A stretch of DNA of 64,000 nt, from assembly GCA_001798135.1 (NCBI GenBank), contig MGRJ01000015.1, positions 62,001 to 126,000 of the forward strand, in the 5' to 3' direction. The stretch is from Deltaproteobacteria bacterium RIFCSPHIGHO2_02_FULL_40_28. Its GTDB lineage: Bacteria > UBA10199 > 2-12-FULL-40-28. Both the position numbers and the translations under genes were made by a program. This document shows, one piece after another, positions 5,482 to 54,372 of the stretch. The notes under the pieces are model-generated. The model was not told the DNA's origin, made no database searches, and saw nothing but the letters and a program-made list of their open reading frames with translations. How positions within the stretch are numbered: position 1 is the stretch's first letter; each line of letters starts with the position of its first letter.

Positions 5482-6803
5482 AAAAACACATTGATCTTTT
5501 GAGAACCCGTTTGCTCAAAAAGCAAATCAAAAAATATGAAATTTATCTCATGCGTCAAAGAGGGACTACTCTCGAGTTTGATTCTGGCAAGACTAAAACT
5601 CAAATGAAGGCTGATGAATATGGGTTTGCTTTAAGGCTTATTCATGCGGGACGATTGGGATTTTCATATTCCAGTGAATTTAATACTGCCTCCATAGATA
5701 AAACCATTGATCTTGCTTTGGAGGCGGCAGTTTATCGTCCTGTGCCTGCTTTTGATTTTGCTTCTTTTGCTCCCGCAACTTTTAATCCGGGCAGAGATGC
5801 ATCACTTCTTGAAATCCCTTTTCAAGAAAAAATTGAGCTTCTTTTTTCTTTGGAAACATTTGCAAAAAAATATGATCCTGCCATTCATTTAGTAAAGGAT
5901 TTAACGTATTCTGATTTTTTGTCCCAAGTTCAAATTTTAAACTCGAATGGGTTAGAAGTTTCTTTTGAAAATTCTTGTGCTTCTCTTGTTCTTTCGGCCC
6001 TTGCAAAAAAACATGGCAAAGAAGAAGTAGGCATGGCTTCACAGGAGACGGTTTTTTTTAAAGACTTAAATCCAGAAAATTTGGGAGAAGAAGCTGCCCG
6101 CCGTGCTTTATCATTTTTGGGATCAAAAGAAATATCCCCTTATCAGGGGCCTGTTATTTTTTCGTCTCTTGTTGTAGCCGAGATGCTGCAAATTCTTCTT
6201 CCTAGTTTTTTTGCCAGTAGTTTAGTGAAAGGAACCTCGATTTTAAAAAATAAAAAAGGAGAAAAAATTTTTTCATCTCAAATCAATCTTGTTGATGATG
6301 GCTTGGCTAAAAAAAGAGTAGGGGCCGCCCCCTACGATGCAGAAGGAGTTCCTAGAAAACGCACTCCTCTTGTTACCAAAGGGTATGTTACCCATTTTTT
6401 ATCTGATCTTTTTTGGGGAGAGAAGGCAGGATGTGAATCTACTGGTAATGCCATGCGAGAAAATTTAACTCTCCCACCAGAGATTGGCTTTGGTCCTGTA
6501 AGTTTAGAGCCTGGAGAAAAGAATAAGGAAGATCTCATCAAAGATTTAGGACGTGGTTTTATCATTGAAGAAACAATTGGGATGCATATGGCAGATGTTG
6601 TATCGGGGCAGTTTTCAGTTGGGGTTTCTGGGTTGTCGGTTGTAAATGGTAAAAAGGGGAAACCCTTCAGAGGAGGGGTTGTCACCAGTAATATCAAAGA
6701 AGTGTTTTCAAAAATCATTGAAGTGGGGAATGATCTTAAATGGGATTCGGGTATTTTAGCTCCAAGTATTTTAGTAAGCGAAATTGGGATAGTAGGTTCT
6801 TAA
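5478..6803 (+). CDS. pmbA: TldE/PmbA-type protein of the TldD/TldE protease family
   Basis: 441 residues. The C-terminal part carries family features: a GxxPYDxEGxP segment near residue 290, GNAMRENLT, and the end region GQFSVGVSGLSVVNG followed by VTSNIKEVF. The metalloprotease motif HExxxH of TldD is absent, which is normal for the TldE/PmbA partner. In E. coli TldD-TldE degrade unfolded peptides, including peptide-antibiotic precursors. No tldD lies in this window, so the partner must be elsewhere. It is translationally coupled to recN, an unusual neighbour. A short GC-rich palindrome at 6320-6337 encodes conserved residues and is not a repeat insertion. Confidence 0.85.
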   Translation: MKKHIDLLRTRLLKKQIKKYEIYLMRQRGTTLEFDSGKTKTQMKADEYGFALRLIHAGRLGFSYSSEFNTASIDKTIDLALEAAVYRPVPAFDFASFAPATFNPGRDASLLEIPFQEKIELLFSLETFAKKYDPAIHLVKDLTYSDFLSQVQILNSNGLEVSFENSCASLVLSALAKKHGKEEVGMASQETVFFKDLNPENLGEEAARRALSFLGSKEISPYQGPVIFSSLVVAEMLQILLPSFFASSLVKGTSILKNKKGEKIFSSQINLVDDGLAKKRVGAAPYDAEGVPRKRTPLVTKGYVTHFLSDLFWGEKAGCESTGNAMRENLTLPPEIGFGPVSLEPGEKNKEDLIKDLGRGFIIEETIGMHMADVVSGQFSVGVSGLSVVNGKKGKPFRGGVVTSNIKEVFSKIIEVGNDLKWDSGILAPSILVSEIGIVGS

Positions 6804-7745: not shown

Positions 7746-8693
7746 ATGAAATTAGGTGGTTATCATATTATTTTTGTTCCTCAGGATGCCTCTCAGACGA
7801 AACGTTTTCATTTGTCCAAGGTAACGGCTCGTTTGGTTGCTTTTGTGCTTTTCTTAATTGTTCCTCTCTTACTTATCGCTCTTTTTTCAGCCCTTCATTA
7901 CCAAAATGAGGTAGCAGCCCTTAATCAAAACATTGCTGAAGAACATCAAATTATAGCTCAAAAAGAGCTTCTCATGTCACGTGTTTCAAGACTGGAACGA
8001 TCACTCTCTCATACTGAAGAATCACTACATAAGTTAGAAAGTGCCCTCGATTTAGAGCTGGGCCAGATTAAAACTGGTTTGGGTCCTGTTGAGAAAGAAG
8101 CATTGTTTAAAAAGAAGGTCCAAGAATTACCTAAGGTCAATTCAGTTTTTGATAACCTTGTAGCCATGGAAGAACCTGATGAAGAAATTACCCTACGAGA
8201 TTTACAAGATCACTTAGATGGTCTTTCTGAAAAAATTGCTGGTCTGCAAAGCAATATTGATGAGGTTTATAACTTACACGAAGATAAAATTCGGTTTTTA
8301 GATGCAACCCCACAAAAACTTCCTGTTAATGGGTGGATAACATCCGACTTTGGCTTTAGACGTTCCCCTTATTCAGGCCGGTATAAAATGCACTATGGAC
8401 TGGATATTGCCGCTCCTCTAGGAACTGAAGTGCGTGTCCCAGCCTCTGGCCGTGTTTTGGTTGCAGATTATCAAGGTGGGTATGGCCGTAAGGTGGTGAT
8501 TGATCATGGTTATGGTGTTACAACTGTTTATGGGCATGCCGCGCAACTTTTTGTTAAGGATGGTGAAATGGTGAAAAAAGGGCAGGTGATTGCCTCCGTT
8601 GGATCTTCTGGTGCCTCTACTGGTCCTCATGTTCACTACGAAATCCATGTTGATGGTTTGCCAATTGATCCTTTTCTTTTCCTTTCCAAATAA
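7746..8693 (+). CDS. Membrane-anchored M23 (LytM-type) cell-wall peptidase
   Basis: 315 residues: a short cytoplasmic N-terminus, one membrane span at about 28-50, a coiled coil at about 51-105 and a C-terminal LytM domain at about 195-310. Zinc ligands and catalytic histidines are visible: His216 and Asp220 (HYGLD), His264 (YGH), and His295 and His297 (HVHYE). With the complete motif it should be an active peptidoglycan endopeptidase in the periplasm, unlike degenerate EnvC/NlpD-type activators. AGAGGA lies 6 bases ahead of ATG 7746 and supports this start. The SCP2-like gene follows after 9 bases. Confidence 0.92.
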   Translation: MKLGGYHIIFVPQDASQTKRFHLSKVTARLVAFVLFLIVPLLLIALFSALHYQNEVAALNQNIAEEHQIIAQKELLMSRVSRLERSLSHTEESLHKLESALDLELGQIKTGLGPVEKEALFKKKVQELPKVNSVFDNLVAMEEPDEEITLRDLQDHLDGLSEKIAGLQSNIDEVYNLHEDKIRFLDATPQKLPVNGWITSDFGFRRSPYSGRYKMHYGLDIAAPLGTEVRVPASGRVLVADYQGGYGRKVVIDHGYGVTTVYGHAAQLFVKDGEMVKKGQVIASVGSSGASTGPHVHYEIHVDGLPIDPFLFLSK

Positions 8694-8702
8694 AATAAAT
8701 AA

Positions 8703-9104
8703 ATGAGCTTTTTTAAAGATTCTGATGAATTAAAAAAAATACTGGGTGGATTTTTTAATGTTTTAGCCACAGATCCGGCTATTGGACCTAAACTGTTAAA
8801 CTCCAAACTCATTCTTAAATTTATTTATCGGGAACCCGACGCTTCGATTACCGTTGATTTATCTGGAGCAAGCGTGGTGATTACCTTTGATGACCAAATT
8901 AAAAAGCCTATCGTGGAAATGAATATGAAGGGTGATACAGCTCATCGTTTTTGGAAAGGAGAGGTTAATTTGGTGATTGCTCTGGCCAGACGTGAAATTA
9001 CAGCAAGAGGGCCTATCCCCCAAATTTTAAAACTACTCCCCCTGATCAAATCTGCTTATGGGCTTTATCCCCAATATCTTAAAGCACAGAGTATTCCCCA
9101 ATGA
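8703..9104 (+). CDS. SCP2-like (sterol carrier protein) domain protein
   Basis: 133 residues forming a single domain. The pattern of an N-terminal helix, then IYREPDASITVDL, FDDQIKKPIVEMNMKGDTAHRFWKGEVN and GPIPQILKLLPLI looks like the SCP2 lipid-binding fold. No signal peptide is present, so it is probably cytoplasmic. The gene lies 9 bases behind the M23 peptidase and overlaps the macroglobulin-like gene by four bases (ATGA), so it is probably co-expressed with an envelope protein. The ligand is unknown. The family call rests on pattern recognition and is moderately sure. Confidence 0.6.
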   Translation: MSFFKDSDELKKILGGFFNVLATDPAIGPKLLNSKLILKFIYREPDASITVDLSGASVVITFDDQIKKPIVEMNMKGDTAHRFWKGEVNLVIALARREITARGPIPQILKLLPLIKSAYGLYPQYLKAQSIPQ

Positions 9105-51438: not shown

Positions 51439-51759
51439 ATGAATAATAAAGAGAAAATCAGGAATAAATACTTAGAACTATCCCGAATGGACAAGGAAAT
51501 TGTAGGGACTGCCTTGGTTAAGGTAAACCTGGGAGTAGGGATGCCAGGGGATTTAAGAATGATTGCTGATTTCTTGAGAGGAAGCCCTTATATTGCCAAA
51601 AAGGGCACATTAGATGCTCTTATTCATTATCTCCATGCCGACCATACCGACACCAAAACGGACCCACCTGCCAATTTACCTCCTGATCGTTTAACCGAGC
51701 TTAATGTGTTTGATGAAGATCATGAGATTACCGCCAAAGAAAAAATTCCAAAGAGGTAG
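51439..51759 (+). CDS. Small protein of unknown function
   Basis: 106 residues, soluble, no signal peptide. The first ~75 residues look like a helical domain (NKEKIRNKYLELSRMDKEIV, LRMIADFLRG). The tail is proline-rich (TDPPANLPPDRL) and acidic. I recognise no family. It is divergent from the mqnL operon. Its TAG stop codon is formed by the first bases of the 59-bp palindromic element, so the original C-terminus may have been different before that element arrived. Confidence 0.6.
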   Translation: MNNKEKIRNKYLELSRMDKEIVGTALVKVNLGVGMPGDLRMIADFLRGSPYIAKKGTLDALIHYLHADHTDTKTDPPANLPPDRLTELNVFDEDHEITAKEKIPKR

Positions 51760-51814
51760 GGGCAACCCCCCGTGGTTGCCCTTTTCATGGGCGGCCACAG
51801 GGGGCCGCCCCTAC
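51756..51814. repeat. 59-bp double-hairpin palindromic element
   Basis: Outer ends are exact inverted copies: GTAGGGGC at 51756-51763 and GCCCCTAC at 51807-51814. Inside are two hairpins, GGGCAACC/GGTTGCCC and GGGCGGCC/GGCCGCCC. It is strikingly GC-rich against its surroundings. The TAG in each end is the stop codon of the flanking gene (51757-51759 on plus, 51813-51811 on minus). It resembles REP-type intergenic repeats found in many copies in some uncultured bacteria, and may also terminate transcription from both sides. Confidence 0.8.
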
Positions 51815-54372
51815 GTTTCAGGGCAAACAATAGAAGTAATACATTTTTTGAAATTTAAGTATTTTTTTGAAACTCTGGAAATATCTGCCAAAGTTACTGC
51901 TGCAATTTTTTGCGCATAATGGAGATAAGCATCAAAACCCAAACCATATAGTTCTGAATAAACAAGACTCGCAGCAATGCTAGATCCTTTTTGAAGATCC
52001 AAATCATAATTGCCAATGATATAATTTTTAGAGCGATCTAATTCGCTGTCAGAAATAGATTCTCCACAAATTTTGTTTAATTGGGCCACCATGGCATTTT
52101 GAGCTTCTTCTAATTTGGAAGGATCCGAAGCAATATAGGTGGCAAAATATCCACCAGACAAGCCAAAGGATGTCATAGACGTTACTGTATAAGCCAGCGA
52201 GCGGCGATCCCTCAATTCGAGAAACAATCTTCCCCCTTGACCAGAAAGAACATTACTTAAAACTTCGAGAGCATAACGATCGGGATGTTTTAGTCCCGGA
52301 GTTCCAAATCCGATCACTAAATGAGACTGCATTTTATCCTTGTGTACGATGGTTGTGATGGATTTTGCAGGAAGAGGAACAGAGGCACAAGCTTGTTTTC
52401 TAAATGAAGATTTCAAATGCATAAGCTCTGCTTCAAAAAATGAAATTATTTCTTCTGGATTAAAATCACCAACGACAGAAAAAACAAAAGGAGATTTTTG
52501 ACATTTTTTGTTCAAGGCTTTAAGGGCCTCCGCATCTATTTTTTGAACAGTATTTTTTGTACCAATTGCTGGCATGCCATAAGAATGATTTGGAAAAAGG
52601 GTTTTAGCAAAACCTTTGAAGGCTAATTGTGCGGGGTGATCATTTTCTTGACGAATAGCTTCTAGGGTAAGATCTTTTTCTTTTTTAACCTCTACTCGCT
52701 CAAAAGTAGGATTTAAAAAAACATCCAAAAAGAGATCCAAGCCCAACTGCTTTTTATCCGAGAGAAAATCTGCCGACAAACCCCAGCTATCTCTTCCTGA
52801 AACCCCATTGATTGATCCGCCAATTTCTTCACAAATTTCAGAAATTTGGAGGGCATTTTTTTTTGTAGTTCCTTTGTCCAGCAGGGAAGTCATCAGTTGA
52901 TAAATTCCATTTGTATTTTTATTCTCATAACCAAGTCCCCCCATCGATGCCATTTTAACTGAAATCAAAGGAAGCCTGTGTGATGGTTTAAGTAGAAGAG
53001 TGATGCTATTAGCAAAAACAATTTTGGTTAAATCTTTTCTTTGTTCTTGTTTGTATTTTTTTTGAATTCTATTTTTTTTCTTGGCCAAGGAAATGAGAAT
53101 GTCTTTTGTGAGTTTGATTTTTTCCTTATGAGGATGAAGAATATTAATCCCTGCCTTACTCCAATTAAGATAAGTGTTTGCAACATGTTGTATATCATGG
53201 GGCTTTACTTGATCTAATCTTTCTAAATATTCCTTTTCAAAATTAAGACTCCCGGCTGTTGTTTCATACATCATCCATTTTCTGACACAGCCTTCACAAG
53301 TTTCCTTAGTATAGTAAAGTGAGCTTTTAAGATCAGATCGCATTCTCTCTAAAACCATTGGGTCACAGAGATTTTTTTGAACTGTTTCGATTTCAATACC
53401 AATGGCTTTAATGAGTTCCTTTGTTTTTCCTGAAAAATGATTAGTTGAAATAAAGAAAAGTCCTGCCTCTTTTGGGGTATAGGCATAAGAATAAATTGAA
53501 AAAGCTAATTCTTTTTTCTTTCTTACATTTTGTTCTAGAAGTGAGGTTTCACCCTCACCTAAAAAACGGGAAAGTAAATCAAGAGTAGGAACATGAGGAT
53601 GTTTAATATCAGGAATAGGAAAAGCAATATTCATAAAACTAGATTCAAAAGGAGAACCATGAAGTGAAAAAGAAGAGGGAGGATTAATGCTTTGAAAAGG
53701 AACATAAACCGGGGATTTATGAATGGGTTTATGAGAAAAAATATTTTTTACGGTTTCAAGAGCTTCATCCACGCTTACATCACCACAGATACCAAGAACC
53801 ATATTGGCGGGATGATACCATCTTTGATAGTAATCCTTAACAATTCCTGGAGTAAAACTTTTGATAGTATTTTCATACCCAATGATGGGACGACCATAGT
53901 TATGGTGGGGAAAGGCTTTTGAAAAAGTATGCTCAGATAAAACAGAGCGGGGATTATCTTTCGAACGTTTCAATTCTTCTAAGATAACTTCCAACTCATG
54001 TGAAAGTTCAACCGGATCAATGATGGCATCAAACATCATTTCTTTTAAAAGCCTTAAAGCAAGGATCCAATTTTTTTTGGGCAAGTTGATATAATAAACT
54101 GTTTGATCAAAAGCAGTGTAAGCATTGAGTTCGCCTCCGTTAGCTTCAACAAGGGAGGCAATTTCTCCTGGCTTATAAGAAGTGGTCCCTTTAAAAACCA
54201 TGTGTTCTAACACATGACTCAAACCAGCTTCTTCATTTTTTTCCATCACAGAACCAACTTTAATGCCTATTTGGAGTGAAACAACGGGAGCATGGTGGTT
54301 TGATTCAATGAGTATTTTTAAGCCGTTATCTAAATAATGAACTTGGACACAATCTAAGGAAGTTGTCTGCAT
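51811..54372 (-). CDS. M16 family zinc metallopeptidase (two-domain)
   Basis: 853 residues holding two M16 units. The first is active: inverted zinc motif HVLEH (His53, Glu56, His57) and Glu133 in VILEELKRS. The second (from about 440) has the M16 C-terminal features RDRRSLAYTVTSM and a glycine-rich segment but no zinc motif. The layout is that of single-chain pitrilysin-like or fused PqqF/PqqL-type proteins. No signal peptide is seen, so it may be cytoplasmic. The TAG stop is supplied by the palindromic element. It is divergent from the NtrC-type gene. Confidence 0.9.
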   Translation of the reverse strand: MQTTSLDCVQVHYLDNGLKILIESNHHAPVVSLQIGIKVGSVMEKNEEAGLSHVLEHMVFKGTTSYKPGEIASLVEANGGELNAYTAFDQTVYYINLPKKNWILALRLLKEMMFDAIIDPVELSHELEVILEELKRSKDNPRSVLSEHTFSKAFPHHNYGRPIIGYENTIKSFTPGIVKDYYQRWYHPANMVLGICGDVSVDEALETVKNIFSHKPIHKSPVYVPFQSINPPSSFSLHGSPFESSFMNIAFPIPDIKHPHVPTLDLLSRFLGEGETSLLEQNVRKKKELAFSIYSYAYTPKEAGLFFISTNHFSGKTKELIKAIGIEIETVQKNLCDPMVLERMRSDLKSSLYYTKETCEGCVRKWMMYETTAGSLNFEKEYLERLDQVKPHDIQHVANTYLNWSKAGINILHPHKEKIKLTKDILISLAKKKNRIQKKYKQEQRKDLTKIVFANSITLLLKPSHRLPLISVKMASMGGLGYENKNTNGIYQLMTSLLDKGTTKKNALQISEICEEIGGSINGVSGRDSWGLSADFLSDKKQLGLDLFLDVFLNPTFERVEVKKEKDLTLEAIRQENDHPAQLAFKGFAKTLFPNHSYGMPAIGTKNTVQKIDAEALKALNKKCQKSPFVFSVVGDFNPEEIISFFEAELMHLKSSFRKQACASVPLPAKSITTIVHKDKMQSHLVIGFGTPGLKHPDRYALEVLSNVLSGQGGRLFLELRDRRSLAYTVTSMTSFGLSGGYFATYIASDPSKLEEAQNAMVAQLNKICGESISDSELDRSKNYIIGNYDLDLQKGSSIAASLVYSELYGLGFDAYLHYAQKIAAVTLADISRVSKKYLNFKKCITSIVCPET

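Follow-up and report, generated by a model that had tools for sequence, protein, structure and literature searches.

GTAG REPs have been divided into 24 families, and it was already reported in 2013 by Di Nocera, De Gregorio and Rocco that the termini of such repeats can supply TAG stop codons (PMC3733652). The REP dimers described there are characterized by an outside GTAG at both ends, compensatory changes in their stems and an association with REP-associated tyrosine transposases (RAYTs). Such dimers occur between convergent ORFs, with less than 20 bp separating them from either 3′ end; their termini can give TAG stops, and intragenic REPs are found in repair genes (PMC3733652). The TnpA-REP transposase works on single-stranded REP hairpins, and GTAG has been proposed to guide its cleavage site; mutated GTAG impairs or abolishes cleavage (PMC8266576). 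REPtrons of TnpA-REP subclass 2.4 combine the transposase motifs NH[IFV]H, WQ and YIxNNP with long REPs that have a G-C stem foot, "double-foot" REPs, and REPs inserted in frame into the transposase gene in the region from HuH to Tyr (Quentin et al. 2018, PMC6006769). In the REPINs of Pseudomonas fluorescens, an inverted REP doublet with a spacer forms the mobile unit (PMC3116915). Finally, the Rickettsia palindromic elements (RPE) are palindromes that lie in frame within protein genes.

Here we describe an element that we compare with these systems. It lies in a 64,000-nucleotide stretch (the window) of the genome of Deltaproteobacteria bacterium RIFCSPHIGHO2_02_FULL_40_28, between two convergent genes. 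The features of the locus, in window coordinates, are as follows.

51439..51759, plus strand: gene of 106 amino acids, matching no Pfam or NCBIfam family, with orthologues in six of seven genomes of the same order
51757..51759, plus strand: TAG of the left GTAG, stop codon of the 106-amino-acid gene
51756..51814, no strand: head-to-head REP dimer of 59 bp with GTAG outside (sequence, copy pattern and folding; nomenclature of PMC3733652)
51756..51781, plus strand: left REP arm, GTAG and hairpin GGGCAACC-CCCCGT-GGTTGCCC (exact-copy search)
51782..51788, no strand: 7-bp spacer TTTTCAT (sequence)
51789..51814, minus strand: right REP arm, GTAG and hairpin GGGCGGCC-CCCTGT-GGCCGCCC (sequence and single-arm search)
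51811..51813, minus strand: TAG of the right GTAG, at which the M16 peptidase gene stops
51811..54372, minus strand: M16 peptidase of 853 amino acids with Pfam domains Peptidase_M16 and M16_C
51817..51819, minus strand: GAA codon at the position of the native stop in four M16 orthologues (alignment and relatives' DNA)

The dimer reads GTAGGGGCAACCCCCCGTGGTTGCCC-TTTTCAT-GGGCGGCCACAGGGGGCCGCCCCTAC in a layout of 26, 7 and 26 bp, and its ends (GTAGGGGC and GCCCCTAC) are exact reverse complements. Each arm consists of GTAG followed by an 8-bp stem with a 6-nt loop, which forms its own hairpin, and is thus a palindromic unit in the 20- to 40-bp range with an unpaired 5′ GTAG. Alternatively, the whole 59 bp can fold into one long hairpin. 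The DNA folding energy of the dimer was −22.6 kcal/mol (z −4.7) and that of the RNA −48.2 (z −6.8), with none of 200 shuffled sequences being equally stable in either case. Sequence and folding therefore agree with the original prediction of a 59-bp palindrome with inverse, TAG-bearing ends and two inner hairpins, and the ORF coordinates bear out its statement that both flanking genes stop at the outward TAGs. An Rfam search of the window returned no family match. An integron attC site, the classical "59-base element," was considered and rejected, as the RYYYAAC and GTTRRRY cores were absent by eye and the ends are GTAGGGGC and GCCCCTAC instead.

If the 59 bp were deleted exactly, the sequence predicts that the plus-strand gene would extend by a handful of codons and the minus-strand gene by under a dozen codons. 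As the next stops are close by on both strands, the element serves as a stop but is dispensable in this role. The great stability of the dimer hairpin could indicate that it acts chiefly in terminating transcription in both directions or in stabilizing the mRNA 3′ ends of the convergent pair, and roles of REPs in transcription termination and mRNA stabilization have been proposed (PMC3733652). However, the plus strand carries no canonical terminator at the element, and the one pattern match on the minus strand covers the dimer and the adjoining gene only in part. Furthermore, relatives keep the gene pair without the element, and many REP copies lie inside genes. We therefore regard a primary role in termination or stabilization as unlikely.

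The element is one of many in this genome (2.16 Mb in 31 contigs). The pattern GTAGGGGC-N25..55-GCCCCTAC occurred in 30 places, while the reversed control gave none, so the dimer pattern is present more often than expected by chance. Single arms gave 154 matches, compared with 35 in the reversed control. The left arm was found in 14 exact copies in the host, whereas 59 other genomes contained none; dimers of the GTAGGGGC type, with differing stems, were nevertheless detected in 20 of the 60 genomes searched, the host included. The prediction that the element belongs to a dispersed palindromic repeat thus held, and the repeat is genome specific. Besides dimers, the host contains 28-bp copies of GTAGGGGCACGGCGCGCCGTGCCCCTAC, which correspond to long and double-foot REPs. 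Among 21 distinct arms, 97.6% of stem cells were paired, and two-sided (double-change) stem cells numbered 39, versus a mean of 12 in shuffled sets and at most 14 in slid controls. The covariation score of these arms exceeded 500 of 500 shuffles and every slid version. This strong pairing and covariation across arms indicate that the stems vary by compensatory change. GTAG-GGGC was invariant among the 21 arms, a set that had been collected with that motif.

Five near-identical dimers (L014, L020, L022, L023 and L024) have a common flank over 8 to 65 bp on one side and 30 to 48 bp on the other, apparently derived from a TCATCCC...GGATCC palindromic repeat. Contig C22 starts 8 bp ahead of one of these five dimers.

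The stem/loop set of the host, GGGCNNNN-CCCYGT-NNNNGCCC, is compared here with the GTAG REPs of PMC3733652 as a whole. The anatomy of the dimer, its compensatory stem changes, its position at less than 20 bp from two convergent 3′ ends and its TAG stops all agree with the dimers described there. The inverted doublet with its spacer also resembles the REPINs of P. fluorescens, although stem sequence and RAYT are different (PMC3116915). Likewise, the in-frame copies of the host recall the RPE; however, RPE-4 and RPE-6 correspond to CGTC repeats, which have no known transposase (PMC3733652).

The two stop codons were compared with those of relatives from the same order that belong to other families. 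A scan of named genomes with the M16 protein yielded two distant relatives and no congener. The convergent pair is kept in three of them (G006, G003 and G002) with intergenic gaps of 24, 4 and 7 bp, respectively, and GTAGGGG is absent between the two genes in all three. The comparison proposed in the original prediction thus yielded the same gene pair with an empty site. According to the alignment and the relatives' DNA, all four M16 orthologues end right after one invariant Pro, with a native TAA or TGA stop directly after it, two codons before the position of the REP TAG. In the window, this Pro is instead followed by GAA and ACG (Glu-Thr) and then by the REP TAG, which gives an extension of two residues. 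The 106-amino-acid orthologues differ by no more than a few residues in where they end, and neither flanking protein is truncated in the window; both stops now belong to the element. From these sequences, the native stop of the M16 gene appears to have been lost, the REP TAG now being the real terminator. The insertion probably came first and the native stop was lost later, and the change of stop may well have been neutral.

Transposases related to those of the IS200/IS605 group insert beside a fixed tetranucleotide. GTAG could in principle be such a target, in which case both stops would be older than the element and the insertion would have retained native TAGs. The TAA or TGA codons directly after the Pro in the M16 orthologues, two codons before the REP TAG, argue against this order of events, as does the lack of a common target sequence in the flanks of the 30 dimers (by eye). 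We consider it very improbable that the stops predate the element.

To place the double stop in context, gene ends and reading frames were recorded in stretches around the copies, based on a single-arm listing that reached contig C23 and mainly on dimers on later contigs. The ORF calls were mechanical, and copies were counted as inside an ORF when it had at least 90 amino acids. In the sampled stretches, a REP is faced by 36 gene 3′ ends, 7 of which stop exactly in GTAG, and the remaining ends lie 4, 6, 7, 9, 17 bp and so on from the REP. Other copies thus also supply stops, as had been anticipated. Besides the window pair, five genes are stopped by GTAG, four of which have Pfam domains. Among the seven are a CDP-alcohol phosphatidyltransferase, a response regulator, a thioredoxin-like [2Fe-2S] ferredoxin subunit and a phosphopantetheinyl transferase. 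The last of these (L030; C31:91978-92551) also carries an internal REP and a palindromic insert (RHSREGGDP) in addition to its REP-supplied stop. Stops at both ends in identified genes were found only for the window element, 1 of 30 dimers. A second candidate at C10:26287 was rejected, as its left ORF of 80 amino acids overlaps an opposite-strand gene of 658 amino acids and is probably spurious.

In contrast to SBW25, whose REPs are primarily extragenic (PMC3116915), the host has many in-frame copies. Of 70 sampled REP clusters, 36 are contained in frame in ORFs with a length of 90 amino acids or more, although some of the short or N-terminal ones may reflect spurious ORFs or wrongly placed starts. 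A coding strand that enters via GTAG avoids the TAG frame and reads Val-Gly or Arg-Gly in one of the two open frames. In-frame REPs were observed within UvrD, Mfd, MnmE, NadC and ROK-family genes (L037, L054, L053, L051 and L063), the UvrD copy being located between the C-terminal helicase and tudor domains; this is comparable to the intragenic copies in repair genes mentioned above. On contig C4 (3500-19612; L032:1-16113), a single frame of at least 5371 codons contains about a dozen in-frame REP clusters. The window itself also holds an 18-bp mini palindrome, GTAGGGGCCGCCCCCTAC, at 6318-6335, which reads VGAAPY in frame inside a 456-codon frame that may be TldD/PmbA-like.

The exact coincidence of 7 of 36 facing gene ends with GTAG could be explained by selection, if outward stops make the dimer harmless and TAG ends favored at gene borders let the family spread. 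However, a coding sequence is bound to end wherever it meets a REP in the TAG frame, and an insertion entered in this third frame survives only near gene ends, so the pile-up of GTAG stops requires no selection on the motif. Furthermore, TnpA-REP has its own need for GTAG (PMC8266576), and 36 of 70 clusters are in frame inside ORFs, several of them well inside known genes. Selection for harmless stops is accordingly an improbable explanation. With both ends used in 1 of 30 dimers and about half of the clusters read through in frame, the earlier suggestion that outward stops are the means of spread was not upheld; stops at gene ends are one tolerated outcome and not the driver of spread.

The search for a RAYT gene, which had also been proposed, was successful. 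Matches to Y1_Tnp in the host comprised two genes on contig C5, both above the cut-off, and one on C17. The C5 genes are RAYT-type Y1 transposase genes with matching arms. Against REP_Tyr_transpos, the C5 proteins scored an E value of 4e-16 and 59 bits, below the curated cut-off of 80, and the gene is damaged. Both C5 genes hold an in-frame 59-bp dimer, one arm of which is identical to the left arm in the window, and their N termini are interrupted or replaced by other palindromic repeats. Two further RAYT fragments are located at contig ends (C5:1 and C29:3). No intact RAYT was seen in the host genome, each copy observed being either damaged or truncated where its contig ends. The C17 gene (218 amino acids) was rejected as the cognate enzyme, as it is more distant (NF047646, 34.6 bits) and 1.5 kb of surrounding sequence contained no GTAGGGGC. 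RAYT loci with an internal element are located as follows.

L033:7241-7873, 8369-8920: the two host genes on contig C5, with the element in the linker after the HuH motif
L079-L105: RAYT loci of relatives, with the element in the linker after the HuH motif

The motifs NH[IFVL]H and WQRNY were present in 22 of 22 RAYT loci from relatives and other phyla, and Y...NP in 21 of 22, mostly as YI.NNP or YI.DNP. An in-frame GTAGGGGC...GCCCCTAC-type element lies between HuH and WQRNY in 21 of these 22 loci and is never in the TAG frame. Several of the internal arms recur among the REPs dispersed in their own genome, as judged by eye and without a control in genomes with listed dimers. By motifs and the internal-REP habit, the host RAYT would thus match TnpA-REP subclass 2.4, whose long and double-foot REPs are also seen here; unlike the described REPtrons (PMC6006769), the host's own transposase copies are N-terminally damaged. 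The window element was presumably mobilized by this RAYT.

Taken together, the element is very likely a REP dimer of the REPIN/BIME type in the GTAG superfamily that was presumably mobilized by a subclass 2.4-like RAYT and lies between two convergent genes, both of which it ends. Such a small nonautonomous element would be copied via single-stranded hairpins by a cognate transposase similar to those of TnpA-REP subclass 2.4, and the dimer would have landed in the few base pairs separating the two genes. GTAG would serve as the recognition tetranucleotide, with TAG in one of its three frames being incidental. As GTAG is a proposed cleavage guide whose mutation impairs or abolishes cleavage (PMC8266576), the simplest view is that TAG arises as a by-product of the motif recognized by the transposase. 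Both genes would enter the element in the TAG frame and stop inside it, and the subsequent loss of the original M16 stop would have let the element's TAG take over.

Both the supply of stop codons by REPs and the presence of REPs inside transposase genes have been published before (PMC3733652 and PMC6006769). What this locus provides is a clear worked example in which a REP took over the stops of two convergent genes, with element-free orthologues for comparison, and it places another lineage on the RAYT/REP map. That the native M16 stop was lost hints at a way in which repeats of this kind come to be fixed. Tentatively, a backup TAG supplied by a REP may let the host stop decay, with the nearly universal transposase-internal REP of subclass 2.4 as a possible master copy for the dispersed repeats and a ratchet acting at gene borders. 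If true, a neutral selfish repeat would become part of a gene, and REPs would be fixed at gene borders.
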